A DNA stretch of 64,000 nt from Strongyloides papillosus (lineage: Eukaryota; Nematoda; Chromadorea; Rhabditida; Strongyloididae), in assembly GCA_005656395.1 (NCBI GenBank), contig SRSI01000050.1, positions 2,790,001 through 2,854,000 of the forward strand, in the 5' to 3' direction. Below, piece by piece: positions 1,294-36,624 of this stretch. Position 1 is the first letter of the stretch. Each line of letters opens with the position of its first letter. The position numbers and the translations under genes were made by a program. Below the pieces are notes generated by a model. The model saw only the letters and a list, made by a program, of their open reading frames with translations. It did not search any database and had not been told where the DNA came from.

Positions 1294-2036
1294 CAATTAG
1301 AAAAATAAACCGATTAGAGAATATAGTTATAAAACATAAAAACACAATGTTATTATTTGAAATGACATTTTTATATAGGATAGAAATGAAAAATCATAAA
1401 AAACAGTAAATATTTATTTATACAATTATTAACAATCTAAAAAAAATTCCCCATATCTTAAACAATTTAATGCAAATTATTAATTTTTCGTAAAAACTAA
1501 TTGTTATTATCTAATGAAAAACAAATTTGAGTAAATATTCTTTAATCTTGAATTGGCAATATTACACCAGTGGTGGGGCATTTATTTCAATATAATATTT
1601 ACATAAATTTCAACTTTGTTTATTACGTTCTCAATACTATTTTTTAATAATTTAAGTAAAAAAAAAGAGATTTTGTAGTTTAAATGATAGTGTCACTTGT
1701 TGTGGAGAAGTAGGACTTCCTCAGACGTCGGTTGAATTTTCGTGTTACTCCGGAGCTACCTGTTTTTTGCTTCCTAGGATATAAATATCAATAACAATAT
1801 AACACTTCACAGCTCTGAACATTAATAAACAATCAGATAAACATTAGTTGTCTTCAACAACATAATTAATCATTAATTAGACGATCAAAAACTTTTTATA
1901 AAAAACCAGTCAAAAGTACAAACAAATTATAAAATGATTAAAAAAATAAAGATAAAATGATTAAGCATGTGAAATATGGCTACCAATGTTTTTAGTTCCT
2001 TGACTGCGTCCTAAATTTACATAGGGAAACAACCAA

Positions 2037-2948
2037 TTAATAAGAACGCAAAAAACAGTATATCTTCAAAAGAATGATAAGCATTAAAGTCATTGTATAC
2101 GAAAAAGAGCCTAATTCCAAAAGACCAACCTTGAATAATCTAGAAAAAAAATTTTCACTATCGCCAGTGCCTCCAATACCACTATTGAAACCTATAGATC
2201 GTTTAATGGTAAATGATGAATTTGTGTTCCATATACACTCATTAACTTCAGCTTTACCAATGATGTCTAATCCATTTTTAGAATACCATCCATTGCCATC
2301 ACTTGTCTTTACCATTGCTCCGTAGAAGCAATCGCATTCAATGATTCCTTTATCCACAATAGGTAGGTTTATAATATCACATCTAACATAATAAATTTTT
2401 CCATCCTGAATATCTCCAATAAGTCCATCACTCGCAGTTACACGGCGGATGAATTTGAGCTTTTCTTCATATGTGCTGTTCCCTGAAGTAATGTTAGCCG
2501 CTTCATCCAAGAAATTGCTACATGCTGCGTCTCTGAAACTCTCCTCCAATGGAAACATATGGGCAGGTGCAGTTAGTATACTTTCAATTAAAAAGTAGAC
2601 ATCTCCCGTAAGGTATTCAGCTCTTGCTGGAAGACAAGGAGGTCTTATAGTATGAGATTCTGGTCCTCTTCTATAGATGATCTTGTTATCAACAGAAATA
2701 ATAAACTTCGGAGAAATGAATGCTCTGGTTAAAGGACTGTACGTACAGGTCTCCGTTGTAAAATTTGCGTTGATGTAATAAACGTTTGATTTAGCATAAA
2801 CTTCATGAGTAATTAAATCACAGATTACATTCATTGGGTAGAATGAAACGGATCTTCTGACTTTTGTGAAATCTGGACACTCAATGAGAGAATAAACGCT
2901 TGTGACAAAAAGAATAGATACTAAGACAATACAACTTATTGTTTTCAT
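2037..2948 (-). CDS. Secreted or single-pass membrane protein, unknown family
   Basis: This encodes 303 residues from the ATG at 2948. An upstream in-frame extension is ignored because an acceptor-like TTTCAG lies 4 nt before this ATG. Residues 1-20 form a signal peptide, the body holds about ten cysteines and several N-glycosylation sites, and a hydrophobic stretch near the C terminus could be a membrane anchor. I do not recognise the family. The right-arm paralogue at 35404 has a longer tail after the anchor. Here a one-base shift near 2065 moves the same tail out of frame, so the protein stops about 28 residues early. The outer position and diverged sequence show that the two copies are no longer homogenised. 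Confidence 0.75.
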   Translation of the reverse strand: MKTISCIVLVSILFVTSVYSLIECPDFTKVRRSVSFYPMNVICDLITHEVYAKSNVYYINANFTTETCTYSPLTRAFISPKFIISVDNKIIYRRGPESHTIRPPCLPARAEYLTGDVYFLIESILTAPAHMFPLEESFRDAACSNFLDEAANITSGNSTYEEKLKFIRRVTASDGLIGDIQDGKIYYVRCDIINLPIVDKGIIECDCFYGAMVKTSDGNGWYSKNGLDIIGKAEVNECIWNTNSSFTIKRSIGFNSGIGGTGDSENFFSRLFKVGLLELGSFSYTMTLMLIILLKIYCFLRSY

Positions 2949-3780
2949 AGTTCTGAAATATATTAAAATTAGTAATAAAAATTGAGATATTTTAACACAA
3001 ATTAAATCGGCGGTTTTAAATATAATAAAATTAGAAATAGCGATTTTAAACATTTCAAAATAAATTGAATTGGAGATTTAAAATATAAATGAGTTAGAAG
3101 TTAAATGAAAAGGGACTAAATGAAAATAGCGCGAAAGGTACTGAAGAAGAAAAAATGTGAGTTCAAAGTATAATGTCGATGTAATTTATAACAATGAGAA
3201 AAAGCACCTTCAATTATAAAATGATAAAAATGAAAGTATGCAAGTATTTATATACTTTCATTAATTTCTTTAACCGATAAAAAGACATGCTTTTTTTTTT
3301 ATTCTCTCATAATGAAATGTAAAGACTTTTTTGTTATTTGATAGATCTTTTCTATCAAAGAAAAATATCATCTTCCCATGATATAAATTATATGTTTTTT
3401 TCAAATTGTTCTAATACTTTAACATCCTTGTAAACCAATGATTTTCTTGATTGTAAGGTAATTAATCTTTGACTCTTTATTGGAAATGAGCTCCTTTAAT
3501 CATTGGAATAGTTTATTAATCTTTACGATTGGGATTTGACTTTTCACACAAATTTGAATGCAAAATAATGATGAAATTCCTTCGTTACACGATATTTCAT
3601 GTAATCATGAATAAAGTAGTCCATCAGAAATAAAATTTACTTATCAGTTAATTTACAAAAAAAACTATATTTTTAAACATTTTTTATTATTTTAAATATA
3701 AAAGAGAAGTAGAATAACATTTTTAAAATGAATTTGTTGTACATTTATTACATACAAAATCTCTTAATCATTTATTGTTT
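2949..3780. other. Intergenic, no gene seen
   Basis: This AT-rich stretch separates the secreted-protein gene from the decayed gene. A TATA-like segment near 3245-3255 (tatttatatactttc) is conserved in the right arm near 35100 and may belong to the secreted-protein promoter. Identity to the right arm is about 97% over a 140-base sample. Confidence 0.4.
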
Positions 3781-3799
3781 CACAATGTACTTATCATGT

Positions 3800-4611
3800 T
3801 GTCTTCAGAAGTTAATTTGTTGTTAGGTGTAGACAAAAACGTGTTAGTTTTCATGATGATCTAGAAGTAAGAAAATTCTAATTCAGAACACGCTCCAGTT
3901 AAAGTTAACAAGTCTGAGGAAAATGCAAATTAAGGTGTTGATAGAGTAAAAACAATCAATCTCACTGATCCTGTAATTAAAGTTCTAATAAAGTTAGCAA
4001 AAAGAATTCTCGGATTCGTAATACTTTTAAAAAATAATTTCATGATCCAGATCCTCATTCGTCTGAATTAGAAAGATATATAAGTAGATGGGTCCAAGTA
4101 TGAAAAAATTGTACACTTCATATCTGTCTTGCTCATAATAATCTAGAAAACCTACAAAAAAGTATGAGTTTTAAATTTATAAAGTTATTTATTATAATTC
4201 TTTTCCCAATTTCTCTTTATTATAGATTATTAATAATGACATTTATTGGTCGACTCCGGATCAAATAAAGTTACATATAAAATTAATTAACAAATTATCA
4301 TATTATGATACAATTCTAACATTTTAGAACTTTTGCTATTATTAATAAAACAAGGAAACGATAATACTACGTTGATTGAGAAAGTTACCACTAATGATGG
4401 AATGGATGATGGTTTTGGTGAAGAAAATGATTCAGTAGTTAAAATAGATGACAAAAATGTTATTAAAGAAATAATTAAGAATATGTGCAGACATGTTTAT
4501 GATTATGAAATGAATAACATTGGGAATGATATGTCTGACTAAATACAAGGACAATCTATATATGTTTTATCAGTGTCTTTATTGAATTTTGTACTTTTTT
4601 TATTTTTGTAA
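3800..4611 (+). pseudogene. Decayed gene with C-terminal hydrophobic tail, left copy
   Basis: Several protein-like stretches lie in sequence but in different frames. They include one with KRVSFHDD near 3826, one with HDPDPHSSELERY near 4041, a probable intron ending TATAG near 4225, and a 69-residue acidic stretch from 4333 to 4542. The last ends at a TAA where the right-arm copy has CAA. Beyond it the frame continues into a hydrophobic tail that stops near 4611. The family is unknown. Multiple stops and shifts mark a relic. It lies next to the phosphatase gene and is read in the opposite direction, tail to tail. Confidence 0.5.
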
Positions 4612-4836
4612 ATTTTATGTAAATATTCTACTTCTTTTTGATATCATATAATTTTTTAAAATACTCTTGATAACTTTTATGTTGTAATAAATGTTTGTAT
4701 AATTTTTTAATGAAAAATGCAATTGGAATCTTAATATACTAAAAAATGGACTTAAATTAATAATTTATTATATAAACAAACTTATATATGTCGTCTAATA
4801 TAAGTGATTTAATTTTACATGTGAATTCCATACAAT

Positions 4837-7800
4837 TTATTTTTTATTTTTATCTTCGATTTCTTTTTCCTTTTTAACGAGTTTTTCAGCCATGGTCATA
4901 AACTTTTCATAGGCTTCTGCGTCCATATCATTAATTTGTTTCTTGTAATGCTCAAAAACGACCATAAGAGCAAAGACAAATTGACTGTACTTCTGGACAG
5001 CAAGATACCTATGTTCCCTTAGACACTTCAATCTTGCGATCGGATCGAAAGTCGGGAAAACGTTGATAGTATCAATCAAATACATTATGAGTGCGAGGGT
5101 TCCGGTTCTTCCGATCCCTGCACTACAATGTATTCCTATATAATCACCAGTACGTAAACTGATGATTCTCTTATATAGAGAATAGATACTCATGTGTTCG
5201 GATGGGACACCTGAAAGAAAAGAATTAATAAAAGTATTGTTCATTATTTAAACTTACTCTTATCAGGCCATCCTTGATAGTGGAGAAGGGTGAATTTCAT
5301 TTCGGAATTATCTTTTTTATTCTTAAGGTTACATTCTGTTTCGGTGGTGAAGTCCTTATCCAACCCTTTGAAATTTAATTTTGAAACACGGAAATTTTTA
5401 GTTTCAAAAGATTGATCTTTTTCAGGGAAATAAGGGAGCCATTTTTTTCTTTCACCAGTAGCTTCTTCAGGCTTGACTAAGATAACAACAAGAGTTATTT
5501 TGTATCTTAGAATCATATCAAGCATATCGTCAATTGTCTCATCGAGTGGTGCCTAAAAAAGTAAGTTTTAATGATATTAATGTTAAAACCCTACCTGACA
5601 TAAAATCAATTTTCTAGTTATCTTGTTTTTTGTGGTATATTCAAACTTATTAGCATGAATAAAGCTTTCTGTGTCCCAGGCAGGTTTTCCATTAACAGTG
5701 ATCCCATTTGCATCAAGACATTGGATGTCACTGTAGCGGTATCTCTTCTTGTCTTTACCAGTTAGATAATTGTCGATTGCATCATAGTATCGCTTGCAGT
5801 AAAAAGGAAGTGCATTCTGGTCCATTCTTCCTAGAGTATAGAAGACAGATTTGTATTCGTACATCTTTCCTTCATCAACAATATTGACGAATTCTAGGAA
5901 CTTTTTTAATACTTCATCCATCTTGTCTCTTCGTTTTAAATAATCATAGAAGTAGCTGTCATAACTGGAGGTAAAATCAGTACGACGTTGTGAGAAGTCA
6001 ATAAGAATCCTGTTGTTGAAGAATGCTGTTACGAGAGCTTTAATCATGTAGGCAAACTCGTATGGCACCAAGTTTCCTCCGTACCGTCTGTCACGGATAC
6101 TCTTGATAACTGTCATGGGGCAATCAATGTCTCTATCAGATATCAATGCATCGTATATACATGCGAAATAGGTGAGCATGTATACACGGGCTCCAGTTCC
6201 TTGTGTTGAGTGAATAAGTATGTTCTTCTTAGGAGCATTTTTGATAATTTCCTTATATATATTAACAAATTGGAGATCCGACTGAGGTATCTCATTTCCT
6301 TTCCAATTAGAAACATGAAATATATCCAAATATTTTGATTCACTTCCTTTCCTTTCCAACATTATTTTGTATCCTGAGACAGAAAGAACATTGACTTTGA
6401 TCACATCCAAACAGGTAACAACAATGTCTTTGTATGTAGTTTTATCCTTTTTCCAATATAGATCTTTTAAAACCTCATCATTGTCTCCAGAGTTTTTGTC
6501 ATAGATTATGGTAATTATCGTGGCAATGTCCTCCTCATAAATCATCTGCCAGAAGGAAGATTGATTATCTTTTGTTGGACCCTAAAATGATAGAATTATA
6601 TTATTAGAATTTATAAACTTACATCAGAAAGGATATACTTTCTTTTTTCTGCATCAGTATAAATATAGTGAGCTTGAATTTTCCTGAACAAGTTTTTGTA
6701 GCAATCAACTAGCGTTTCATCAAAAAGATGACTAATGCCGATGTCGACTTCTTCACCTCCTTCCACTTTTTGGATAACTTTCCGATTTAGTACCTTATCA
6801 GATAAGTACTTTTTGTCCTTTATTATCTTACAGTAGTTATCAAAAGACTCGTTCGTCAGATTATCCCAGAAAACATAGACGTTGGGATATTTTCTCTTGT
6901 GTTTTAACATTATAAGGAACGGATTCAACCATTTTTTGTAAAGAATTACTACTGGAACAGCCAAGATAATTAAGATAAGAAGAATGACTCCAACAATTAA
7001 AGAGATGGCTTTGGTCTTTCCAACTTTATCCGAAAATTTTTGAAGCGCAGACTTTTGATTTTCCTCCGATTCTTCTTTTATCTTGTCTATTTGTTTCACA
7101 AATGTTTTTTCCATTGTAGCTAGTTCTAACATTTTAGTCTTGTTGTGTTGGGATGTTATGTTGTTTAATATTTGATCTGCTAGTCTTTGAGCATTCAAAG
7201 CAATCGTATCTTTGTTAACAAATTTTGTAGTTGTCGTGATACTTCCATCCAAAGTCTTGTATATACAACTTATTACTGTAGTGCCATTATTGCTTTCTAC
7301 AAAAGATATAGAGTTTTCTCCTTTAGAAAATTTTCCTCTTAAGCTATCAGTAGACTCTAGATCATTAACGTTTGCATGAGTTCCATTATATTCAACTTCT
7401 TTCAAGTAACCGACATTCAAATAAGTAGTGTCGCATTTTACTTTTATAGAAGTATCATTTGCAGAAATTTCTTCAGTCTTGTCCAACGTATAGTTTATAG
7501 GACCTGGCCCAAAGTAATATGTTTGAGATACGGTTTTGTTTCCTTGAGCAGTCCAACAATTATATACCAACTTCACTAAGTCGAATCCGTTTATAACAAA
7601 ACTTGAAGTTATTGTTATTGTAGAGCCTTTAATAACTTCAGTGCTATTTTTCATATATCTCATTCTTGATAAAGATATTTCTTCATAACGATAAAATTTT
7701 TCATCATTTCCTTTTTTAAGATTTATTCTAATCTTTTTTTTCTGTCCTTCTAAGCCATTAATGTCTATTTTCTTTACTTCACCAATAGAAGAATATTCAC

Positions 7801-8491
7801 TATAGTCAGGTAAATTAAAAATTGGACAACCCTTGACTCCCTTATATATAAAGCAAGGTTTTTTAATTGAGTCTTTATTATTTTCACTAGACTTTTTAAA
7901 ATAATAAAACATTTGATTTGCATATGGACTCTTGATATCTTTTGGATCAATTTTTACTGCTTTGTTATCTTCTTTATTCTTAGACACAATTAATACATCT
8001 TCAGATTCAGAAGAACAGTGAACGTGAGTTTTTGGGATTGAGTCGTCCATAATTGTTGTACCCACAGGGATTTCGTCAATTGCAGAATCATCCCATTTAA
8101 CATTAAAAATCCATTGTTTTAATATGATAGAATCCTCGCCAGTTTTGATTTGAACATTACCACAATTAATTTTTGTTTGATTGGTTGGTTGTCTTAACAA
8201 AGGTACCCATGCAAACAAGTTATTAGGATCACGAAATATCTCTTCTTCTTTAAAAATATCAAGATTGGGGGCAATCTCATATCCAGAAACATTATGTTTA
8301 TATTTATAATCGGGACATTTTACCATTACGACATCAGAATCAGTTATCACTTCTAATCCAAGAGGAAATGTTGTTTTGTTGATAGTCTCCGGAACGTTAG
8401 GAAAAAGATCCTTACGATGCAATCCTTCAAGCTGTATTAGAAATGGCATCATAGCCAAAGTAGCACCCAACCAATATAACTTTAAGAACAT
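4837..8491 (-). CDS. Receptor-type protein tyrosine phosphatase, tandem domains, left copy
   Basis: Four exons, 8491-6623, 6581-5595, 5552-5258 and 5210-4837, join in frame to 1,174 residues. The ATG at 8491 begins a signal peptide. The extracellular part of about 490 residues has many N-glycosylation sites and no domain I can name. One membrane helix lies near residues 495-520. The first phosphatase domain keeps the FWQM scaffold but has WKG instead of WPD (about 716) and HSTQGTGAR instead of HCX5R (about 747), so it should be catalytically dead. The second domain has WPD at about 1047 and HCSAGIGRTG, with Cys about 1079 and Arg about 1085, and should be active on phosphotyrosine at the inner membrane face. 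The ending is lysine/glutamate-rich. Introns are 42-47 bp. Substrate and ligand are unknown. Confidence 0.88.
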
Positions 8492-10890
8492 TGTAGGTAA
8501 TTCGTACAAAAAATCTACTCATTAAATCATATTTTTTTACATACGAAATTTGAATATAACAATAAATTATTTCAAATTTTCAGTTAAATTTTCGAAAATA
8601 TTAATATTGATAAAATTTTATTCAATTTTATATTCAAAAGTTTTTAATTAGAACCAACAATGTTAAAATAATGCATTAAAATGTAAAGAAAAGAAGAAAT
8701 GGAATTATAATTAAGGTGATTTATCGATGATTTGTTACATCTATAATATTCAAATTTTATCAACTCTAGAATTAGGGGTCTTTTACATTCTTCAATTTTG
8801 TATCAGATTTAAAAATTTGGTATATATTATTTTTGATATCTTGGAGGGCAATTTTTTAACGATTTTAATTTTAAAATAATGTTCGTAAATACCATTGATA
8901 TCATAAGATGATCATATATGGAAAAAAATCAGCTATTAATGGAATTGAACATCTCTAAACAAAATGAAACCCACGTTACTAACGCGATTTATTTGGAAAA
9001 CATAAAAATCAAACATTTTAAACTTTTTTTATTCTTGAGAAAATTCAACTTTATAAAAATTATCAATTTAACACAATTCAGTTTCTAATTTCCCGAAAGA
9101 GAACCTTAAAATTTTGAAGGTATTTTTTAATTCAAATTGTTATTGAAGATAAATATTCCAAAGCAACTAATATGATAAAATTATAGAGATAAAAGATAAA
9201 GTCTTGGATTTGTATGAGGATTATGGGCTGGGAATATCAAATTAAACATTTTGAGTTTCCCCATCAGAAACTAATAAAAGATTGCTTCTCGTAAAGATTG
9301 AAATAGATTTAGTAAACTTTCTTAAGAGATCAATTCCATTAATTGGTAAAACTGATAAAGCATAAAGTGTTTTTAAAATTCTATAGGAAGCTCTTTCTAC
9401 GAGATCAATAAATAAAAAGATGGTTAGAATAAATTTTGATCAACTTAAAATTGCAAAAAGTTTTAATAAGTTTTTTGATCGTAGTTATTTTTTAGTAGTT
9501 TGTTTGTTTTAACAAGCAGCAACTCGCTTCGCTCGTCGCTACTTGCCCGCAGGGCTTGTATTTTCTGAAAAATATTTAGAATTCTAGAAAAAATTAAAAA
9601 TCTTTTGTTTTATAATAGCATACTTGCAAGATTCCAAGAAATATTTTTGTATTTTAAAATATTAATAATTATTATTAAAATTTTATAGGTTTTTGAATGT
9701 TAAAAATTTACAAAACATATTTTATCAAAATTGTTTTATTACATATTCTCATGATTTTAAAATCATTTAAGATTCTAAGTTTGAATAATCTTTCTACAAA
9801 TTTTTAGTATAGAAAAAAAATTAAGAAAAATGTTTAAATTAAAATTCTAATTAATATGGGTGCTTTAAGTTATTAAATATGATAGAAATTTAAAATACAG
9901 ATTAGTTTTAAGTTTGGTTAACTTTTTAAAGAATTAGTAATATTTGAGGTTGATCATAAGTATTTCATAGTTATTTAACTTAAAATGATACAATTTTTGC
10001 GATTGTTATTTTATCATTTCGCATTTTGGTAACATAATAAAGAATACTTTTACATTTTTTATGTATAATTTTTGTTTTATATTTTTTAATAAAGAAACTT
10101 TTTAAAATGTGTTGTGAAAATTAAAATTTTGAATGTATTCAAAACGATAAAAAGATTCTTTTAAGTTAAAAAGATTAAAAATAAATCAAAACCATTACTC
10201 AGACACTTTTCGCATTGAATAAATTTATATAGACTTTAAAAGCTTAAAATATATTTACATCAATGTATTGGTGATTTTTTTAATAAAATATTGTAAAATT
10301 TACTTTCAAAATGTATTGGTGAACAATTCAAACTTAGAAATTAGGTTAATTTTTTTTGTGATTTTTACAAAGCAAAGCAAAACTTTTAGATATTTTTACA
10401 TTTTTTAAAAAAATAAGTGTGTGCATCACCATATCATAAATTTTAAACATTTTTTTTTAAAACTTATAATATGGATAACTATATTACAATAGTTTGAAAC
10501 GATTTAGTATAGATCATTTTAACATAAAAAGATTTGGAGTAAAAAATTTAATTTATTATAGGATTTAATGATATTTAATAAAAATTTCGTTAAGTTTCAA
10601 AAGGCCGAATATAATTTCTTTTTAAGTTTTTCACTATATCTTAATGATTGTCATATATTGCAGTGATTAAAAAAAATTTTAGTCGGCACAAAAATTATAT
10701 ATAATTAAATAAAAACCACTTTTTTCACCTATCCTATCTACTATATTCTTAGGAATATAAATTAATATTTGAAATTGTTTAAAACAATTGGTCCAATGAC
10801 TTTAATGAATTATTGTTTTTTACTTTCTTTAAAAAATCAGTTGTTTTTGTAATTTTTTATTTTGGGGAGATTACAAATTCTAGTATTATT
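8492..10890. other. Intergenic, upstream of phosphatase, no gene supported
   Basis: This very AT-rich sequence mirrors 27460-29857 almost exactly. One right-arm reading frame (28907-29107) is destroyed here by a single extra T, so neither copy supports a gene. The only striking element is the GC-rich mirror motif at 9513-9558. A promoter for the phosphatase must lie near 8500-8600, but no clear TATA box was found. Confidence 0.5.
9513..9558. repeat. GC-rich mirror-symmetric motif
   Basis: A short GC-rich island in otherwise very AT-rich DNA. It is bounded by CAAGC and GCTTG, which are reverse complements, and contains CTCGCTTCGCTC (9523-9534), which reads the same backwards on one strand. 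The right arm has the same motif at 28792-28837. Function unknown. It could be a transposon remnant or a structured DNA or RNA element. Confidence 0.6.
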
Positions 10891-10894
10891 CTTA

Positions 10895-12150
10895 CTGAAG
10901 TAGATGTATCTCAAGAGCAAAAATTCAAATGAAGCTAATATTTATTTTTTCTGTTCAACATATTTAAAATACATTTTCATTTTAACAAAAAATAGTGCAT
11001 ATAACCAAAACCATTTAAGAAGTAAACTTTTCCTCTGAGATATAGGGGAATTTTCGATGACTTACTATTTTCGGGATCGGACTTTTTTGGTAAATTTTAT
11101 AGTTTGCATGTAATAAGCATTAAAAATTACGTCTATATGTGAAATTTCGAATAAAAAAATCGGTATTGACGGAAAAATGGAAGTACCGAATTTCAGTATT
11201 TGGTACTTAATTAGATGTATCTCGACAACGGATAATGGAATTAAGACGATATATATGTCATTCGATAGAGTATTAAATTCCACATAAATTTTGTTAACAT
11301 TTCATATTGAAAAAGTTTCATCTTTGCATACTTTTTTCTTAAAATTTAAAAATTAGAAAAAAAAATTGACCAATTTGTTTTTTGACTAACTCAACAATGA
11401 AAAGAGTTAAATGAACGGTAAATATCTTAAAATATTCGCAACAAATTTCTCTAAGGGGGAAATTTAAGACATTCTGAAAAAATTGACGTATTGAAACTTT
11501 TTTCCTTTCTTGAAAGTAAAAAAAATCACTTTTTTAAAAAATTAAAAAATCACTTTTTTCTTTATATCTCGAGAACGGATAAGTGAATCAACATGATATA
11601 AATATCATTCGATAGAGAATTTAATTCTACATAAAAGTTGTAGAAACACTTTTCTTAAAAAGTTTCATCTTGACGTACTTTTTTTAAATAAATACAAAAA
11701 ATTTTTTTTCAAAAAATTTCTGCAACGGTTTTATGGTACTTAAAGTTTTTCGATTTTCTTGGGATTATACTCAAAATGTAAGTTAAAGAAAAACTTAGGA
11801 TAGTTTTTTTCTTTTTTTCGATTTCCTTCTCTGAATCCTGATATATCATTTTAAAATGTAAGAATTTAGGTTTTTTTCGGCCATTTTGGAAAAAATCCAA
11901 AATCTCGAGAATGAACTTGAAATTTTAACTTTTTTTATTTTAATATTATTAGTATCTAAAACTATATATACCAGTAAAATTTCAGATAAAACGAATAACT
12001 CTAAGGGGGTCAAGACTAACACAACAAAACACCTTTAAGTACCTGTATCTCAAGAACGGGACTTCAGATTAAAAAAATATTGCGTTTTTTGAAATCAGCA
12101 CATAAAGTTACGTATATTCAGTTATAAAAAAGTTTCAATATCGAAAAAAA
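10895..12150. repeat. Diverged tandem repeat array, unit about 340 bp, left copy
   Basis: A motif like TATCTCGAGAACGGATAA recurs near 10910, 11217, 11563, 11900 and 12043. It is often followed by a segment resembling ATCATTCGATAGAGAATTTAA and then by AAAAAGTTTCATCTT. Spacing is about 307, 346, 337 and 143 bp, so the units are degenerate and unevenly truncated. Short open frames here translate repeat sequence and are not considered genes. Confidence 0.6.
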
Positions 12151-12239
12151 ATTGATCTGCCTCGTTACTTCTCTAAATAAAGTGGGGATAATTTTCTCCG
12201 GTATCCTTATTAAAACATTGAACTATATTATTGTAAATA

Positions 12240-12420
12240 CAATTGCTGCGTATCAACTGACATAAAAATTGTAAGCGAATGAAATAACAGAAAAGTAGGT
12301 TGATATTAGGGTGAAATCGTCGGTTTACGAAACCCAATTTTGAGGTAAAATTGAATTCTGAAGTTAATTCTTCAGCTTTCAAAATTTTGGATTGGAGTCA
12401 GAAATCGCTCCTAATATTTC
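12240..12420. repeat. Dispersed repeat copy beside 5S gene
   Basis: This segment contains CTGACATAAAAATTGTAAGC, then CGGTTTACGAAACCCA, then GAATTCTGAAGTTAATTCTTCAGC. It aligns with 12900-13090 on the other side of the 5S gene, and its first half aligns with 15660-15770 inside the insertion element. The two flanking copies are in the same orientation, with the 5S gene between them. Confidence 0.55.
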
Positions 12421-12663
12421 GCATTTTTTCTCAATGGTATATTGATAAATGGTTCTTGTAAAGCATATATTTAGTTGTCTAATTGCACTTATGATATAAA
12501 ATTATACATAAAAGTGAATTAAAATAAAAATGATAACTGAAATTTTATATATTTTGTTATATCTCTCAGTGATTACTATGAATTTCTAATGAAGCAAATA
12601 AAACTATATGTATGAAAAAGTTGTGATTGTTATTTTACTATTACAAATAAGTTAAGAAAAAAG

Positions 12664-12780: not shown

Positions 12781-12899
12781 ACGTTTAAAACCGTCTTCTA
12801 CATAATTATTAATAGTAATATTTAGTGATCAACTCTAGATCGAATAGGTAATATTTATGTCTTTATTCACTATATTTGTCTATACAGTGGCATTCAAAC

Positions 12900-17832: not shown

Positions 17833-17875
17833 AAACTTCCAATATCTAAAATTATGACATTTACCTTCTTAAGAA

Positions 17876-24785: not shown

Positions 24786-25570
24786 GACCCCCCATGCATA
24801 CCGACTTTTTTCCGTTCTTACACATATTCTAACTTTTTTTATTTAATATCTCATTTATCATATAGTATTTATGTTGTAAGTTAAAGAATGATAAAATATT
24901 TGTTTATCGTTTAGTTGCAAGAGAATCTACCGTCAAATCAATTAAAAATAAATGAATGTTCTTCAAAATATTAAAAATTGAAAATAGTTGTTAAATCAAG
25001 AATTTTAAATAAAAAGATTTATTAAGAATTTTTTGGTATATATGGACAAAAGGCATTGAAATTTACTACAATTCTTGTAAAATTTGTACATTATAAGAAA
25101 ATTATTTCGAATATATGTTTAAATTACAAATTACTTTATTTTTGAATTTTTTATTTCAAAAATTGACAGTTTGAATAAATAGACAATTCACATGTAATTT
25201 TCTATGGTTATAAACTTGAAAATGCCAAAAGGAGAATTATAAACAATTTCAAAGAAGAAAATCTAATTTTTGGTAATTAAGAAGCTTTTTTAAATTCATT
25301 CAAAAAATTTTAAAGCTGAAGAATTGACCTCAGAATTCAATAATTACCTCAGAAGGAGTCTTATAAACAAACAGCTTTCAAATAATAACAGTCCACTTTT
25401 TTTTTAATTTTATTCGTTAACAATCCATATGTCAGTTTATGAGCTGCAAAAGTTTGAATGCCACTGTATAGACAAATATAGTGAATAAAGACATAAATAT
25501 TACCTATTCGATCTAGAGTTGATCACTAAATATTACTATTAATAATTATGTAGAAGACGGTTTTAAACGT

Positions 25571-25687
25571 CTTACGCTCATATCCTACTGAATGCACCAG
25601 ATCCCATCTGATCTCTGAAGTGAATCAGTTGCGAGCTATCTTAGTACTTGGATGGGAGACCTCCTGGGAACCGTTAGTGGCGTAAGT
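25571..25687 (+). rRNA. 5S ribosomal RNA, right copy
   Basis: About 117 nt, apparently identical to the left-arm gene. The terminal helix (CTTACGC with GCGTAAG) closes the molecule, and the internal control region AGTACTTGGATGGGAGAC is intact. A run of six T follows within a few bases as terminator. Repeats matching 12240-12420 and 12900-13090 bracket this copy too. Confidence 0.9.
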
Positions 25688-26199
25688 CTTTTTTCTTAAC
25701 TTATTTGTAATAGTAAAATAACAATCACAACTTTTTCATACATATAGTTTTATTTGCTTCATTAGAAATTCATAGTAATCACTGAGAGATATAACAAAAT
25801 ATATAAAATTTCAGTTATCATTTTTATTTTAATTCACTTTTATGTATAATTTTATATCATAAGTGCAATTAGACAACTAAATATATGCTTTACAAGAACC
25901 ATTTATCAATATACCATTGAGAAAAAATGCGAAATATTAGGAGCGATTTCTGACTCCAATCCAAAATTTTGAAAGCTGAAGAATTAACTTCAGAATTCAA
26001 TTTTACCTCAAAATTGGGTTTCGTAAACCGACGATTTCACCCTAATATCAACCTACTTTTCTGTTATTTCATTCGCTTACAATTTTTATGTCAGTTGATA
26101 CGCAGCAATTGTATTTACAATAATATAGTTCAATGTTTTAATAAGGATACCGGAGAAAATTATCCCCACTTTATTTAGAGAAGTAACGAGGCAGATCAA

Positions 26200-27456
26200 T
26201 TTTTTTTCGATATTGAAACTTTTTTATAACTGAATATACGTAACTTTATGTGCTGATTTCAAAAAACGCAATATTTTTTTAATCTGAAGTCCCGTTCTTG
26301 AGATACAGGTACTTAAAGGTGTTTTGTTGTGTTAGTCTTGACCCCCTTAGAGTTATTCGTTTTATCTGAAATTTTACTGGTATATATAGTTTTAGATACT
26401 AATAATATTAAAATAAAAAAAGTTAAAATTTCAAGTTCATTCTCGAGATTTTGGATTTTTTCCAAAATGGCCGAAAAAAACCTAAATTCTTACATTTTAA
26501 AATGATATATCAGGATTCAGAGAAGGAAATCGAAAAAAAGAAAAAAACTATCCTAAGTTTTTCTTTAACTTACATTTTGAGTATAATCCCAAGAAAATCG
26601 AAAAACTTTAAGTACCATAAAACCGTTGCAGAAATTTTTTGAAAAAAAATTTTTTGTATTTATTTAAAAAAAGTACGTCAAGATGAAACTTTTTAAGAAA
26701 AGTGTTTCTACAACTTTTATGTAGAATTAAATTCTCTATCGAATGATATTTATATCATGTTGATTCACTTATCCGTTCTCGAGATATAAAGAAAAAAGTG
26801 ATTTTTTAATTTTTTAAAAAAGTGATTTTTTTTACTTTCAAGAAAGGAAAAAAGTTTCAATACGTCAATTTTTTCAGAATGTCTTAAATTTCCCCCTTAG
26901 AGAAATTTGTTGCGAATATTTTAAGATATTTACCGTTCATTTAACTCTTTTCATTGTTGAGTTAGTCAAAAAACAAATTGGTCAATTTTTTTTTCTAATT
27001 TTTAAATTTTAAGAAAAAAGTATGCAAAGATGAAACTTTTTCAATATGAAATGTTAACAAAATTTATGTGGAATTTAATACTCTATCGAATGACATATAT
27101 ATCGTCTTAATTCCATTATCCGTTGTCGAGATACATCTAATTAAGTACCAAATACTGAAATTCGGTACTTCCATTTTTCCGTCAATACCGATTTTTTTAT
27201 TCGAAATTTCACATATAGACGTAATTTTTAATGCTTATTACATGCAAACTATAAAATTTACCAAAAAAGTCCGATCCCGAAAATAGTAAGTCATCGAAAA
27301 TTCCCCTATATCTCAGAGGAAAAGTTTACTTCTTAAATGGTTTTGGTTATATGCACTATTTTTTGTTAAAATGAAAATGTATTTTAAATATGTTGAACAG
27401 AAAAAATAAATATTAGCTTCATTTGAATTTTTGCTCTTGAGATACATCTACTTCAG
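26200..27456. repeat. Diverged tandem repeat array, right copy
   Basis: Mirror of 10895-12150, with recurring CCGTTCTCGAGATAT-type motifs near 26288, 26450, 26775, 27125 and 27440. The short frames here that mirror those on the left are repeat sequence. Confidence 0.55.
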
Positions 27457-28791
27457 TAAGAATAATACTAGAATTTGTAATCTCCCCAAAATAAAAAATT
27501 ACAAAAACAACTGATTTTTTAAAGAAAGTAAAAACAATAATTCATTAAAGTCATTGGACCAATTGTTTTAAACAATTTCAAATATTAATTTATATTCCTA
27601 AGAATATAGTAGATAGGATAGGTGAAAAAAGTGGTTTTTATTTAATTATATATAATTTTTGTGCCGACTAAAATTTTTTTTAATCACTGCAATATATGAC
27701 AATCATTAAGATATAGTGAAAAACTTAAAAAGAAATTATATTCGGCCTTTTGAAACTTAACGAAATTTTTATTAAATATCATTAAATCCTATAATAAATT
27801 AAATTTTTTACTCCAAATCTTTTTATGTTAAAATGATCTATACTAAATCGTTTCAAACTATTGTAATATAGTTATCCATATTATAAGTTTTAAAAAAAAA
27901 TGTTTAAAATTTATGATATGGTGATGCACACACTTATTTTTTTAAAAAATGTAAAAATATCTAAAAGTTTTGCTTTGCTTTGTAAAAATCACAAAAAAAA
28001 TTAACCTAATTTCTAAGTTTGAATTGTTCACCAATACATTTTGAAAGTAAATTTTACAATATTTTATTAAAAAAATCACCAATACATTGATGTAAATATA
28101 TTTTAAGCTTTTAAAGTCTATATAAATTTATTCAATGCGAAAAGTGTCTGAGTAATGGTTTTGATTTATTTTTAATCTTTTTAACTTAAAAGAATCTTTT
28201 TATCGTTTTGAATACATTCAAAATTTTAATTTTCACAACACATTTTAAAAAGTTTCTTTATTAAAAAATATAAAACAAAAATTATACATAAAAAATGTAA
28301 AAGTATTCTTTATTATGTTACCAAAATGCGAAATGATAAAATAACAATCGCAAAAATTGTATCATTTTAAGTTAAATAACTATGAAATACTTATGATCAA
28401 CCTCAAATATTACTAATTCTTTAAAAAGTTAACCAAACTTAAAACTAATCTGTATTTTAAATTTCTATCATATTTAATAACTTAAAGCACCCATATTAAT
28501 TAGAATTTTAATTTAAACATTTTTCTTAATTTTTTTTCTATACTAAAAATTTGTAGAAAGATTATTCAAACTTAGAATCTTAAATGATTTTAAAATCATG
28601 AGAATATGTAATAAAACAATTTTGATAAAATATGTTTTGTAAATTTTTAACATTCAAAAACCTATAAAATTTTAATAATAATTATTAATATTTTAAAATA
28701 CAAAAATATTTCTTGGAATCTTGCAAGTATGCTATTATAAAACAAAAGATTTTTAATTTTTTCTAGAATTCTAAATATTTTTCAGAAAATA

Positions 28792-28837
28792 CAAGCCCTG
28801 CGGGCAAGTAGCGACGAGCGAAGCGAGTTGCTGCTTG
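28792..28837. repeat. GC-rich mirror-symmetric motif, right copy
   Basis: Mirror of 9513-9558 in the opposite orientation, with no visible difference. Confidence 0.6.
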
Positions 28838-29857
28838 TTAAAACAAACAAACTACTAAAAAATAACTACGATCAAAAAACTTATTAAAACTTTTTGCAAT
28901 TTTAAGTTGATCAAAATTTATTCTAACCATCTTTTATTTATTGATCTCGTAGAAAGAGCTTCCTATAGAATTTTAAAAACACTTTATGCTTTATCAGTTT
29001 TACCAATTAATGGAATTGATCTCTTAAGAAAGTTTACTAAATCTATTTCAATCTTTACGAGAAGCAATCTTTTATTAGTTTCTGATGGGGAAACTCAAAA
29101 TGTTTAATTTGATATTCCCAGCCCATAATCCTCATACAAATCCAAGACTTTATCTTTTATCTCTATAATTTTATCATATTAGTTGCTTTGGAATATTTAT
29201 CTTCAATAACAATTTGAATTAAAAAATACCTTCAAAATTTTAAGGTTCTCTTTCGGGAAATTAGAAACTGAATTGTGTTAAATTGATAATTTTTATAAAG
29301 TTGAATTTTCTCAAGAATAAAAAAAGTTTAAAATGTTTGATTTTTATGTTTTCCAAATAAATCGCGTTAGTAACGTGGGTTTCATTTTGTTTAGAGATGT
29401 TCAATTCCATTAATAGCTGATTTTTTTCCATATATGATCATCTTATGATATCAATGGTATTTACGAACATTATTTTAAAATTAAAATCGTTAAAAAATTG
29501 CCCTCCAAGATATCAAAAATAATATATACCAAATTTTTAAATCTGATACAAAATTGAAGAATGTAAAAGACCCCTAATTCTAGAGTTGATAAAATTTGAA
29601 TATTATAGATGTAACAAATCATCGATAAATCACCTTAATTATAATTCCATTTCTTCTTTTCTTTACATTTTAATGCATTATTTTAACATTGTTGGTTCTA
29701 ATTAAAAACTTTTGAATATAAAATTGAATAAAATTTTATCAATATTAATATTTTCGAAAATTTAACTGAAAATTTGAAATAATTTATTGTTATATTCAAA
29801 TTTCGTATGTAAAAAAATATGATTTAATGAGTAGATTTTTTGTACGAATTACCTACA

Positions 29858-32800
29858 ATGTTCTTAAAGTTATATTGGTTGGGTGCTACTTTGGCTATGA
29901 TGCCATTTCTAATACAGCTTGAAGGATTGCATCGTAAGGATCTTTTTCCTAACGTTCCGGAGACTATCAACAAAACAACATTTCCTCTTGGATTAGAAGT
30001 GATAACTGATTCTGATGTCGTAATGGTAAAATGTCCCGATTATAAATATAAACATAATGTTTCTGGATATGAGATTGCCCCCAATCTTGATATTTTTAAA
30101 GAAGAAGAGATATTTCGTGATCCTAATAACTTGTTTGCATGGGTACCTTTGTTAAGACAACCAACCAATCAAACAAAAATTAATTGTGGTAATGTTCAAA
30201 TCAAAACTGGCGAGGATTCTATCATATTAAAACAATGGATTTTTAATGTTAAATGGGATGATTCTGCAATTGACGAAATCCCTGTGGGTACAACAATTAT
30301 GGACGACTCAATCCCAAAAACTCACGTTCACTGTTCTTCTGAATCTGAAGATGTATTAATTGTGTCTAAGAATAAAGAAGATAACAAAGCAGTAAAAATT
30401 GATCCAAAAGATATCAAGAGTCCATATGCAAATCAAATGTTTTATTATTTTAAAAAGTCTAGTGAAAATAATAAAGACTCAATTAAAAAACCTTGCTTTA
30501 TATATAAGGGAGTCAAGGGTTGTCCAATTTTTAATTTACCTGACTATAGTGAATATTCTTCTATTGGTGAAGTAAAGAAAATAGACATTAATGGCTTAGA
30601 AGGACAGAAAAAAAAGATTAGAATAAATCTTAAAAAGGAAATGATGAAAAAATTTTATCGTTATGAAGAAATATCTTTATCAAGAATGAGATATATGAAA
30701 AATAGCACTGAAGTTATTAAAGGCTCTACAATAACAATAACTTCAAGTTTTGTTATAAACGGATTCGACTTAGTGAAGTTGGTATATAATTGTTGGACTG
30801 CTCAAGGAAACAAAACCGTATCTCAAACATATTACTTTGGGCCAGGTCCTATAAACTATACGTTGGACAAGACTGAAGAAATTTCTGCAAATGATACTTC
30901 TATAAAAGTAAAATGCGACACTACTTATTTGAATGTCGGTTACTTGAAAGAAGTTGAATATAATGGAACTCATGCAAACGTTAATGATCTAGAGTCTACT
31001 GATAGCTTAAGAGGAAAATTTTCTAAAGGAGAAAACTCTATATCTTTTGTAGAAAGCAATAATGGCACTACAGTAATAAGTTGTATATACAAGACTTTGG
31101 ATGGAAGTATCACGACAACTACAAAATTTGTTAACAAAGATACGATTGCTTTGAATGCTCAAAGACTAGCAGATCAAATATTAAACAACATAACATCCCA
31201 ACACAACAAGACTAAAATGTTAGAACTAGCTACAATGGAAAAAACATTTGTGAAACAAATAGACAAGATAAAAGAAGAATCGGAGGAAAATCAAAAGTCT
31301 GCGCTTCAAAAATTTTCGGATAAAGTTGGAAAGACCAAAGCCATCTCTTTAATTGTTGGAGTCATTCTTCTTATCTTAATTATCTTGGCTGTTCCAGTAG
31401 TAATTCTTTACAAAAAATGGTTGAATCCGTTCCTTATAATGTTAAAACACAAGAGAAAATATCCCAACGTCTATGTTTTCTGGGATAATCTGACGAACGA
31501 GTCTTTTGATAACTACTGTAAGATAATAAAGGACAAAAAGTACTTATCTGATAAGGTACTAAATCGGAAAGTTATCCAAAAAGTGGAAGGAGGTGAAGAA
31601 GTCGACATCGGCATTAGTCATCTTTTTGATGAAACGCTAGTTGATTGCTACAAAAACTTGTTCAGGAAAATTCAAGCTCACTATATTTATACTGATGCAG
31701 AAAAAAGAAAGTATATCCTTTCTGATGTAAGTTTATAAATTCTAATAATATAATTCTATCATTTTAGGGTCCAACAAAAGATAATCAATCTTCCTTCTGG
31801 CAGATGATTTATGAGGAGGACATTGCCACGATAATTACCATAATCTATGACAAAAACTCTGGAGACAATGATGAGGTTTTAAAAGATCTATATTGGAAAA
31901 AGGATAAAACTACATACAAAGACATTGTTGTTACCTGTTTGGATGTGATCAAAGTCAATGTTCTTTCTGTCTCAGGATACAAAATAATGTTGGAAAGGAA
32001 AGGAAGTGAATCAAAATATTTGGATATATTTCATGTTTCTAATTGGAAAGGAAATGAGATACCTCAGTCGGATCTCCAATTTGTTAATATATATAAGGAA
32101 ATTATCAAAAATGCTCCTAAGAAGAACATACTTATTCACTCAACACAAGGAACTGGAGCCCGTGTATACATGCTCACCTATTTCGCATGTATATACGATG
32201 CATTGATATCTGATAGAGACATTGATTGCCCCATGACAGTTATCAAGAGTATCCGTGACAGACGGTACGGAGGAAACTTGGTGCCATACGAGTTTGCCTA
32301 CATGATTAAAGCTCTCGTAACAGCATTCTTCAACAACAGGATTCTTATTGACTTCTCACAACGTCGTACTGATTTTACCTCCAGTTATGACAGCTACTTC
32401 TATGATTATTTAAAACGAAGAGACAAGATGGATGAAGTATTAAAAAAGTTCCTAGAATTCGTCAATATTGTTGATGAAGGAAAGATGTACGAATACAAAT
32501 CTGTCTTCTATACTCTAGGAAGAATGGACCAGAATGCACTTCCTTTTTACTGCAAGCGATACTATGATGCAATCGACAATTATCTAACTGGTAAAGACAA
32601 GAAGAGATACCGCTACAGTGACATCCAATGTCTTGATGCAAATGGGATCACTGTTAATGGAAAACCTGCCTGGGACACAGAAAGCTTTATTCATGCTAAT
32701 AAGTTTGAATATACCACAAAAAACAAGATAACTAGAAAATTGATTTTATGTCAGGTAGGGTTTTAACATTAATATCATTAAAACTTACTTTTTTAGGCAC

Positions 32801-33512
32801 CACTCGATGAGACAATTGACGATATGCTTGATATGATTCTAAGATACAAAATAACTCTTGTTGTTATCTTAGTCAAGCCTGAAGAAGCTACTGGTGAAAG
32901 AAAAAAATGGCTCCCTTATTTCCCTGAAAAAGATCAATCTTTTGAAACTAAAAATTTCCGTGTTTCAAAATTAAATTTCAAAGGGTTGGATAAGGACTTC
33001 ACCACCGAAACAGAATGTAACCTTAAGAATAAAAAAGATAATTCCGAAATGAAATTCACCCTTCTCCACTATCAAGGATGGCCTGATAAGAGTAAGTTTA
33101 AATAATGAACAATACTTTTATTAATTCTTTTCTTTCAGGTGTCCCATCCGAACACATGAGTATCTATTCTCTATATAAGAGAATCATCAGTTTACGTACT
33201 GGTGATTATATAGGAATACATTGTAGTGCAGGGATCGGAAGAACCGGAACCCTCGCACTCATAATGTATTTGATTGATACTATCAACGTTTTCCCGACTT
33301 TCGATCCGATCGCAAGATTGAAGTGTCTAAGGGAACATAGGTATCTTGCTGTCCAGAAGTACAGTCAATTTGTCTTTGCTCTTATGGTCGTTTTTGAGCA
33401 TTACAAGAAACAAATTAATGATATGGACGCAGAAGCCTATGAAAAGTTTATGACCATGGCTGAAAAACTCGTTAAAAAGGAAAAAGAAATCGAAGATAAA
33501 AATAAAAAATAA
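29858..33512 (+). CDS. Receptor-type protein tyrosine phosphatase, tandem domains, right copy
   Basis: Exons 29858-31726, 31768-32754, 32797-33091 and 33139-33512 join in frame to 1,174 residues. An in-frame TTG upstream is not used, because the ATG at 29858 directly starts the signal peptide. Architecture matches the left copy: glycosylated ectodomain, one membrane helix, a dead first phosphatase domain (WKG and HSTQGTGAR) and an intact second domain (WPD, HCSAGIGRTG). The one protein-level difference noticed is a four-residue patch near codon 260 (EMMK here, GNDE in the left copy). It is produced by a lost A and a gained A a few bases apart. It is transcribed outward, away from the palindrome centre. 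Confidence 0.88.
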
Positions 33513-33737
33513 ATTGTATGGAATTCACATGTAAAATTAAATCACTTATATTAGACGACATATATAAGTTTGTTTATATAATAAATTATTAATTTAAGTC
33601 CATTTTTTAGTATATTAAGATTCCAATTGCATTTTTCATTAAAAAATTATACAAACATTTATTACAACATAAAAGTTATCAAGAGTATTTTAAAAAATTA
33701 TATGATATCAAAAAGAAGTAGAATATTTACATAAAAT

Positions 33738-34560
33738 TTACAAAAATAAAAAAAGTACAAAATTCAATAAAGACACTGATAAAACATATATAGATTGTCC
33801 TTGTATTTGGTCAGACATATCATTCCTAATGTTATTCATTTCATAATCATAAACATCTCTGCACATATTCTTAATTATTTCTTTAATAACATTTTTGTCA
33901 TCTATTTTAACTACTGAATCATTTTCTTCACCAAAACCATCCTCCATTCCATCATTAGTGGTAACTTTCTCAATCAACGTAGTATTATCGTTTCCTTGTT
34001 TTATTAATAATAGCAAAAGTTCTAAAATGTTAGAATTGTATCATAATATGATAATTTGTTAATTAATTTTATATGTAACTTTATTTGATCCGGAATCGAC
34101 CATTGAATATCATTATTAATAATCTATAATAAAAAGAAATAGGAAAATAATTATAACAAAAAACTTTATAATTTTAAAAACTCATATTTTTTTGTAGATT
34201 TTCTAAATTATTATGAGCATGACAACTATGAAGTATACAAATTTTTAATACATGGTCCCATTTATTTATATATCTTTCTAATTCAGACAAATGAGGATCT
34301 GGATCATGAGATTATTTTTTTAAAGTATTACGAATCCAAGAATTGTTTTTGCTAACTTTATTAGAACTTTAATTACAGGATCAGTGAGATTGATTGTTTT
34401 TACTCTATCAACACCTTAATTTGCATTTTCCTCAGACTTATTAACTTTAATTGGAGCGTATTCTGAACTAGAATTTCCTTACTTCTAGATCATCATGAAA
34501 ACTAACACGTTTTTGTCTACACCTAACAACAAATTGACTTCTGAAGACAACATGATAAGT
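33738..34560 (-). pseudogene. Decayed gene with C-terminal hydrophobic tail, right copy
   Basis: Mirror of the relic at 3800-4611. The last open stretch (34016-33738) is 92 codons, because a glutamine codon stands where the left copy has TAA, so the hydrophobic tail stays in frame. Upstream stretches are still broken by stops and frame changes. Identity to the left copy is visibly lower than in the phosphatase gene. Confidence 0.5.
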
Positions 34561-35403
34561 ACACTGTGAAACAATAAATGATTAAGAGATTTTGTATGTA
34601 ATAAATATACAACAAATTCATTTTAAAAATGTTATTCTACTTCTCTTTTATATTTAAAATAATAAAAAATGTTTAAAAATAATGTTGTTTTTTTTGTAAA
34701 TTAACTGATAAGTAAATTTTATTTCTGATGGATTACTTTATTCATGATTACATGAAATATCGTGTAACGAAGGAATTTCATCATTATTTTGTATTCAAAT
34801 TTGTGTGAAAAAGTCAAATCCCAATCGTAAAGATTAATAAACTATTCCAATGATTAAAGGAGCTCATTTCCAATAAAGAGTCAAAGATTAATTACCTTAC
34901 AATCAAGAAAATCATTGGTTTACAAGGATGTTAAAGTATTAGAACAATTTGAAAAAAACATATAATTTACATCATGGGAAAGTGATATTTTTCTTTGACA
35001 GAAAAGATCTATCAAATAACAAAAAAGTCTTTACATTTCATTATGAGAGAATAAAAAAAAAAGCATGTCTTTTTATCGGTTAAAGAAATTAATGAAAGTA
35101 TATAAATACTTGCATACTTTCATTTTTATCATTTTATAATTGAAGGTGCTTTTTTCTCATTGTTATAAATTACATCGACATTATACTTTGAACTCACATT
35201 TTTTCTTCTTCAGTACCTTTCGCGCTATTTTCATTTAGTCCCTTTTCATTTAACTTCTAACTCATTTATATTTTAAATCTCCAATTTAATTTATGTTGAA
35301 TGTTTAAAATCTCTATTTCTAATTTTATTATATTTAAACCGCCGATTTAATTTGTGTTAAAATATCTGAATTTTTATTACTAATTTTAATATATTTCAGA
35401 GCT

Positions 35404-36389
35404 ATGAAAACAATAACTAATATTGTCTTAATGTCTATTCTTTTTGCTACAAGCATCTATTCTCTCATTAGATGTCCAGATTTCACAAAAGTCCGAGAAT
35501 CCATTCCATTCCAACCAATGAGTGTAATCTGTGATTTAATTGAACAAGAAAAATATGCTGAATCCTACGTCTATTACATCAACGCAAATTTTTCAACGGA
35601 GACCTGTACTTACAGTCCTTTAACCAGAGCATTCATTTCTCCGCAGGTCATTATTGCTGTTGATAACAAGACCATCTATAGAAGAGGACCAAAATCTCAT
35701 ACTATAAGACCTCCCTGTCTTCCAGTAAGAGCTGAATACCTTACGGGAGATGTCTATCTTTTAATTCAAAGTATACCGCATCCAACTGGTGATATGTTTA
35801 AATTGGAGGACAGTTTCAAGAATGCAACATGTGCCAAATTCTTGATGAAGTGGCTGACATTAGTTCTGGAAACAGCACATATGAAGAAAAGCTTAAATTC
35901 ATCCGCCGTGTTACTGCTTATGATGGACTTATAGGAGATATTCAAGATGGAAAAATTCATTATGTTAGATGTGATGTTTTTGACCAACCTATTGTGGATA
36001 AAGAAATCTTTGAATGCGATTGCTTCTATGGAGCATTGGTATACACAAGTGATCACAAAAGATGGTATTCTAAAAATGGATTGGACATTGATGATGCAAC
36101 TGAGGTAGATAAGTGTATATCATACACAAATTCACCAATTTACCTTAGACGATCTATTGGTTTCGATAATGGTAGTGGAGGCTTTGACGCTAATGGAACT
36201 TTTGTTTCTATAATTTTGAAGTATAGTTCCTCGATATTAAGCTTTATTCAGTCTGGAATAATTTTTTTTGCTTTCATTATTTTGATGACGTTTTGTTTTT
36301 GCTTCCTTAAGGATTGTTTGTATCCCAACAAAAATATGGAACGCAGTCAAGGAACTAGAAACATTGGTAGCCATGTTTCACATGCTTAA
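35404..36389 (+). pseudogene. Secreted/membrane protein gene with internal frameshift
   Basis: Paralogue of 2037-2948. The ATG follows a TTTCAG acceptor-like site by 4 nt. Residues 1-20 form a signal peptide. The frame matches the left protein until about 35843, where one G is missing relative to the left copy (TTGATGAAG against TTGGATGAAG). This frame then stops near 35934, while the homologous reading continues in the next frame to 36389. That second part includes a membrane helix and a polar tail of about 28 residues that the left protein has lost. It is either a recent pseudogene or an assembly error. Without the shift the two would be about 65-70% identical. Confidence 0.65.
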
Positions 36390-36624
36390 TCATTTTAACT
36401 TTATTTTTTAATTATTTTATAATTTGTTTGTACTTTTGACTGCTTTTTTATTAAAATTTTTGATTGTTTAATTAATGATTAATTTAGTTGTTAAGGACAA
36501 CAATGCTTTATCTGATTGTTTATTAATTTTCAGAACTGTAAAGTGTTTTATTTTTATTAATATTTTTCTCCTAGGAAGCGTAAACAGGTAGCTCCGGCGT
36601 AACACGGAAATTCCGCTGGCACCT

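Follow-up and report, generated by a model that had tools for sequence, protein, structure and literature searches.

Introduction

Large palindromes whose arms undergo gene conversion are best known from sex chromosomes, and the usual rationale for them is a lack of recombination. In nematodes of the genus Caenorhabditis, inverted repeats of paralogous gene pairs have been described that are actively maintained (Zhao et al. 2007, PMC1803023), and genic palindromes have been proposed as a route for gene conversion in the parthenogens Adineta vaga and Folsomia candida (PMC7953838). The parasitic females of Strongyloides are also parthenogenetic (PMC10676810). Here, we describe a palindrome of two inverted, gene-bearing arms in the genome of Strongyloides papillosus, within a window of 64,000 nucleotides (assembly GCA_005656395.1, contig SRSI01000050.1, positions 2,790,001 to 2,854,000 of the forward strand; C1:2790001-2854000 in the numbering used below, where other contigs of the assembly are given in the same way). 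It is a palindrome of a known kind, and a large and informative member of that kind with relatives in the same genome. We put at about 0.83 the probability that it is an old inverted duplication whose arms have been homogenised by gene conversion.

At the level of titles and abstracts, no report of palindromes in Strongyloides was found in the literature. The string 'palindrom' does not occur in PMC10676810, its two occurrences in PMC9071541 concern transgene arrays and a DNA-elimination motif, and Strongyloides is not among the entries in the examined part of the survey table of PMC7953838.

Results

The analysis rests on one assembled sequence of 58.2 Mb in 79 contigs. Self-comparison of the window with blastn, together with an alignment of the arms, delimited arm A, a spacer and arm B (Table 1), with about 15.3 kb common to both arms. 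The arms match as two collinear inverted blocks, an outer one (1734-14629 against 36613-23723; 97.9% identity over 12,906 columns) and an inner one (15918-18345 against 23731-21300; 94.2% over 2,441 columns). No other inverted match of at least 250 bp was present in 164 kb of C1, the window included, or in 100 kb of C34. The original prediction, made from the letters of the window, had proposed a giant gene-bearing inverted repeat, and its coordinates proved right to one base. It had also proposed a mirrored gene order, which is borne out for the 5S rRNA and tRNA-Gly genes; the tRNA-Asp gene, however, is intact in arm B only, and the outermost secreted-protein gene is one open frame in arm A but two overlapping frames in arm B, where the copy looks frameshifted.

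Identity between the arms, scored in windows of 250 columns, is stepped, with diverged homologous ends (74-86%) on both sides of a near-identical core. Inward of the outer edge it rises to 92-99% at 2947-4441, and from 4691 to the insert at 14621 the windows are free of mismatches except for one with eight and one with two. On the other side of the insert, identity is 95-99% at 15941-16687, 100% at 16687-17687 and 93% in the next window, and it falls to 75-76% in the innermost 0.4 kb, up to the spacer. Six exact runs of 259-3161 bp each account for 10,052 of the 10,080 bp of the core, and the interruptions between them consist of three single-base gaps, one 11-bp patch and two mismatches. The eight mismatches of the one core window all sit at 7702-7712, within the phosphatase gene, where the reading frames of the two arms differ; we read this patch as two compensating single-base shifts. 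Exact runs of at least 200 bp number eight in the arms as a whole and total 11,363 bp. The longest of them (3161 bp) is far above the maximum of 533 bp obtained in 2000 shuffles of an alignment in which 437 of 15,346 columns differ, and chance is thereby excluded. We regard this stepped profile as the signature of gene conversion that has overwritten old mirrored copies. Outward, the homogenised tracts end short of the secreted-protein gene; inward, they end close to where the peptide gene starts.

The history of the arms was also followed in trees of arms A and B with their relatives at C1:3.75 Mb, C67, C37 and C23 (10 rows per block). In the upstream block (17478-17720), A and B are identical. 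In the body of the peptide gene (17860-18340), a clade uniting A and B is rejected by the approximately unbiased test (p-AU 0.0017); the sister of arm A is C1:3760673 (support 100/98.8), that of the spacer copy is C1:3748954 (99/97), and the two arms of C67 are likewise rejected as sisters (p-AU 2.5e-48). Neighbouring blocks of one arm thus have different histories, which we take to be the pattern that gene conversion leaves. Tracts with abrupt borders, an identity between the arms far above that of their ends and conflicting trees, which together characterise large gene-conversion palindromes, are all found at this locus.

Mirrored loci also occur elsewhere in the genome. Among the 47 5S rRNA matches scored of 505 candidates, there are at least four pairs on opposite strands less than 20 kb apart, namely that of the window and those at C4:420246/432130, C67:17329/35920 and C37:415503/430940. 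In a survey of palindromes from tRNA positions, 63 of 3467 candidates were scored, and no count is drawn from it. The C4 palindrome has arms at 419506-425497 and 427009-432988 (97.5% over the compared part), a spacer of 1.5 kb, and tRNA-Gly and tRNA-Asp genes in both arms. In 250-bp windows along it, the first has 10 mismatches, the next 18 (419756-424255) have one in all, and at the inner end, where a pair of glycosyltransferase family 10 genes lies by the spacer, identity drops to 96, 87, 80, 93 and 90.5%. In C67, 15001-19600 and 33767-38366 are inverted and 100% identical; inward of these, the match is 97-100% and then falls to 72-86% within the peptide gene. A stepped profile is therefore common to the C4, C67 and window palindromes. 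In C37, the tRNA-Asp block is mirrored to the base (418482-419200 against 428274-428992), the left arm is interrupted twice, by stretches of about 6 and 0.9 kb with no counterpart in the right arm, and the outermost 0.4 kb of the right arm is displaced 26 kb outward. C37 and C67 are 98-99% alike over most of the compared length and may be alleles or recent copies, and C23 matches C67 at 91-99% over several kb, in one orientation among the matches seen. Because C23, C37 and C67 could be alleles, C67 and C37 are not counted as independent palindromes.

Between loci, identity is lower. Matched pieces of the window and C4 are 69-85% identical (82% in the 5S block), and the blocks compared between the window and C67 are 76-90% identical. 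Within a palindrome, the homogenised blocks are 97.7-100% identical, and the outer-edge and peptide-body blocks 79-82%. In the homogenised blocks, then, identity within the locus exceeds that between loci, as in the Caenorhabditis type of inverted repeat. One 199-bp match between the spacers of the window (18682-18878) and C4, with 72% identity, hints that these two palindromes share a centre, and the mirrored relatives taken together suggest a common origin of the window, C4, C67 and C37 palindromes.

Two further candidates were set aside. C22 and C47 might form one palindrome over two contigs, and C47 does end inside the locus, but C22 continues past it and no such conclusion was drawn. C34 was weighed as the origin of the arms; in the compared regions its match is confined to the outer secreted-protein gene (76-77%), and a 100-kb part of it holds direct repeats only. 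Dense direct repeats at C34:140003-192731 are 65-82% alike and are probably a tandem gene family. At C24:4752-44500, a unit of about 5.5 kb that carries two 5S rRNA genes occurs eight times in tandem.

In arm A, a transposon splits the tRNA-Asp gene. Seventeen copies in the genome cover the whole query, and the flanks were read at the 13 best-scoring. At 11 of these 13 sites the element lies inside a tRNA gene (Asp three times, Thr twice, Asn, Ser, Phe, Pro and Ile once each, and one with an anticodon left open by ARAGORN). A target duplication is present at 12 of the 13 (eleven of 9 bp and one of 8 bp as cut), and one site is without. The tRNA-Asp insertions in arm A of the window and in both arms of C67 carry three different target duplications and are thus separate events. 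With a longest internal stop-to-stop frame of 64 codons, the element seems to lack a transposase. One site is no tRNA and seems to resemble 7SL RNA; Rfam searches of the separate flanks gave only one sub-threshold match, which was to another site. Dada DNA transposons target tRNA and small nuclear RNA (snRNA) genes (PMC3706591), and the 1.29-kb element likewise sits inside tRNA genes. In the Dada families described in the relevant part of that work, however, target duplications are 6-7 bp, terminal inverted repeats are absent and each family has its own target gene (PMC3706591), whereas the present element has terminal inverted repeats, mostly 9-bp duplications and many tRNA types as targets, and it was not assigned to Dada.

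The peptide genes of the arms and spacer retain the signal part and six cysteines, and the rest of the mature part varies, the A and B copies being 58% identical as proteins. The family has no Pfam match above cut-off, no NCBIfam match up to E 1 and no credible match among solved structures; one UniRef entry matches at 77%, a Strongyloides venezuelensis protein with the source name 'Toxin'. The six-cysteine pattern presumably resembles that of cysteine-stabilised alpha-beta peptides. The ratio of nonsynonymous to synonymous substitution rates (dN/dS) of the mature part ranges from 0.35 to 3.0 over 21 pairs, and for this reason positive selection on the peptide is not claimed.

The arm A phosphatase gene has two introns of about 41-42 bp with GT-AG ends as judged by eye, and possibly a third junction. 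In both copies, the catalytic motif appears to be lost from the first PTP domain and kept in the second, the reverse of the usual arrangement. Many more, and more distant, relatives of the phosphatase are found on C1 and other contigs. The outer secreted-protein gene matches no Pfam family above cut-off. ARAGORN found no tRNA-Ala gene beside arm A to match the one beside arm B. A 5S rRNA fragment, about 83% identical, lies just outside arm A at 1194-1292. Far to the right, at 59657-63812 and on to C1:2859672, there is a tandem family of direct repeats in pieces of 0.4-3.8 kb that are 65-81% alike.

The chromosomal setting was assessed from the phosphatase gene in the right flank (37014-38918). 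Its product matches an S. papillosus protein with a reported identity of 100% across 97% of the query, although one residue is seen to differ, which places the source in S. papillosus or a very close relative. The two best S. ratti relatives of this gene (70% and 63%) lie on a contig of 16,759,152 bp, and a third (57%) lies on one of 11,693,564 bp. The S. ratti scaffolds are given as 17.7, 12.1, 9.2 and 4.7 Mb, with the X in two pieces (PMC10676810), and we read the two smaller scaffolds as the X. Since both contigs that bear relatives are larger than the presumed X scaffolds, the flanking gene points to an autosome, and on the basis of this one gene the S. papillosus palindrome is probably autosomal.

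Table 1. Features of the palindrome and its surroundings, in window positions unless a contig is named.
Feature	Position	Strand	Remarks
Arm A	1734..18345	+	16,612 bp, including a 1,297-bp one-arm transposon insertion with duplicated target; self-comparison, arm alignment
Arm B	21300..36613	-	15,314 bp; self-comparison, arm alignment
Spacer	18346..21299		2,954 bp; contains the third peptide gene copy, directly repeated; self-comparison
Outer edge of arm A, not homogenised	1734..2946		74-86% to arm B over 1.2 kb; arm alignment
Homogenised core of arm A	4541..14620		arm B about 33,808-23,732; exact-run comparison
Second homogenised tract	16670..17730		exact run of 1,061 bp, ends upstream of peptide gene
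Secreted or membrane-anchored protein gene, arm A	2040..3077	-	346-codon open frame
Secreted-protein gene, mirror copy, arm B	35338..36386	+	overlapping frames 35338-35931 and 35802-36386
Receptor-type tyrosine phosphatase gene, arm A	4840..8518	-	DUF7585-DUF7584-DUF7583 ectodomain, two PTP domains
Tyrosine phosphatase gene, mirror copy, arm B	29831..33509	+	identical except one 11-bp patch
Dispersed repeat	9510..12190		about 2.7 kb; both arms, and whole or partial in more than 20 other places
5S rRNA, arm A	12663..12781	-	
5S rRNA, arm B	25570..25688	+	
tRNA-Gly (TCC), arm A	13566..13637	+	
tRNA-Gly (TCC), arm B	24714..24785	-	
tRNA-Asp, arm A	14604..15972	+	split by transposon; ARAGORN on reconstructed empty site
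tRNA-Asp (GTC), arm B	23677..23748	-	intact
tRNA-Ala (AGC)	36624..36697	+	10 bp beyond outer end of arm B
Transposon	14630..15917	+	1.29 kb; terminal inverted repeats (by eye); 9-bp target-site duplication 14621-14629 = 15918-15926; arm A only
Other transposon copies	C29:628916, C58:69249, C14:87243, C10:878790, C3:2518862, C1:1762016, C17:54201, C42:55433, C67:19672, C67:32433		
Six-cysteine secreted peptide gene, arm A	17876..18091	+	
Six-cysteine secreted peptide gene, spacer	19849..20067	+	
Six-cysteine secreted peptide gene, arm B	21545..21769	-	

Discussion

The original prediction had likened the locus to palindromes maintained by arm-to-arm gene conversion, and such conversion is supported here by the stepped identity, the shuffle test, the rejected sister trees and the profiles of the C4 and C67 palindromes. 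The palindrome would have begun as an old inverted duplication of a locus with 5S rRNA, tRNA-Gly, tRNA-Asp, receptor tyrosine phosphatase and secreted-peptide genes. Its inverted geometry would allow the arms to pair and gene conversion to copy one over the other, the latest such event spanning most of the arm. Recombination between them, either without a crossover or with a crossover that merely inverts the intervening segment, would copy tracts of about 1 to 10 kb. Because the tracts stop short of them, the secreted-protein gene on the outside and the peptide gene on the inside would drift apart while the phosphatase, 5S and tRNA genes evolve in concert. The ancestral palindrome may then have been copied around the genome and homogenised within each copy. 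The mirrored form needs no special function, as concerted evolution can follow from geometry alone; the tract borders may be set by selection or by geometry alone, and conversion may run in either direction.

Several observations weigh against this account. A directly oriented copy of the segment 4541-7700, with 97% identity, lies about 1.05 Mb away at C1:3873463-3876620, so a third near-identical copy of arm sequence does exist. It is part of a relative of the phosphatase gene that is 92% alike over 5.1 kb and 97% alike over 3.2 kb of that. About 0.92 Mb from the palindrome, C1:3748349-3762031 holds peptide-gene copies in both orientations, one of them 99% like the peptide of C37, and the palindrome's peptide copies match this cluster at 85% over 2.4 kb. 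The peptide copies of C1:3.75 Mb, C37 and a single C67 arm share 97-99% identity. Together with the direct-orientation copy of the phosphatase segment, they indicate that exchange or recent duplication also takes place without mirror geometry. The upstream-block tree is weak at most other forks and resolves little beyond the identity of A and B. The identity of the arms could be raised by assembly or polishing, and the 10-kb core fits one large recent event as well as it fits repeated conversion.

The last of these points leads to the best placed of the alternatives, a recent inverted segmental duplication, or a single long copying into an older paralogous cluster, without continuing upkeep. 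The uniform near-identity of the 10-kb core would be expected from it, and the relatives at C1:3873272-3878400 (phosphatase) and C1:3759116-3761488 (peptide) imply that segments do move or exchange over a distance. The intermediate identity beside the core (the 92-99% and 95-99% steps) suggests more than one event, however, and the diverged relatives on C4 and C67, which are in the same state, are left unexplained by a single one. We give this explanation a small but real chance of being correct.

A more elaborate proposal adds to gene conversion a role for the transposon. The palindromes would form a dispersed autosomal family on RNA polymerase III genes, descended from one ancestor, in which breaks made by the tRNA-targeting element are repaired from the mirror arm. 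If this were true, the palindrome would be a built-in repair template for the 5S and tRNA genes, and inner peptide or enzyme genes would escape conversion and diversify. The idea is speculative and improbable, with a chance of about one in ten of being right.

An assembly artefact, in which two haplotypes or a fold-back read have been joined head to head and the arms are one locus, is suggested by arms that are near-identical over 10 kb. Misjoins are a familiar problem in large inverted repeats, and C47, which ends inside a relative of the locus, is a sign that such loci may trouble assembly. Haplotypes, however, would not be near-identical over 10 kb yet 74-86% identical at both ends. The flanks also differ: among the matches scored, coverage of the left flank by any one other match is at most 444 bp, the right flank has a 72% relative for its phosphatase part and 84-91% relatives for its collagen part, and no second full copy of either flank was found. 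Further points against it are the peptide gene copy in the spacer, the transposon and the frame change that each affect a single arm, and the similar palindromes on three other contigs. From the stepped identity, the one-arm insertion, the flanks and the related palindromes, a false join is unlikely, and decidedly so.

Least credible of all is the reading as a palindrome of a sex chromosome, like those of mammals or willows, with a tie to sex-linked genes or to dosage as the original prediction had speculated, for although the form is the same (arms above 10 kb, near-identical, with a small spacer) and S. papillosus males arise by elimination of a region matching the S. ratti X (PMC10676810), the link is left unsupported by the flanking gene, whose best S. 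ratti relatives are on autosome-sized contigs of 16.76 and 11.69 Mb, and no sex-related gene was recognised in the arms.

The S. papillosus palindrome can be set beside the systems already described. With the human and primate X and Y palindromes it shares large gene-bearing arms and arm-to-arm gene conversion; those palindromes are sex-linked, whereas this one is probably autosomal, and primate arms are more than 99% identical (PMC8981503), in contrast to the 74-86% of the arm ends here. The survey that proposed genic palindromes in parthenogens used gene order (PMC7953838), and Strongyloides also has a sexual generation. The interest of the palindrome lies in its arms of 15 kb at a probably autosomal place, in a worm whose generations alternate between parthenogenesis and sex, and in the diverged relatives that share its tract structure.

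The closest likeness is to the Caenorhabditis repeats, which are also gene-bearing mirrored arms in a nematode, with arms that are much alike at each locus but differ more from one related locus to another, similarity that breaks off inside genes, and a mirrored pair duplicated as a unit (PMC1803023). The locus had been predicted to be unusual for a nematode, which is borne out in part: smaller maintained inverted repeats exist in Caenorhabditis, and the arrangement recurs within the S. papillosus genome. The F44E5.4 locus of Caenorhabditis has an arm of 2,207 bp and a spacer of 126 bp (PMC1803023), compared with 15 kb and a 3-kb spacer here. The 5S and tRNA genes and the one-arm transposon also set the present locus apart. 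Finally, the Caenorhabditis structure was shown across species (PMC1803023), whereas here it is seen between loci of one genome, and these relatives make it possible to compare, inside a single genome, how the borders of conversion come about and which genes evade it.

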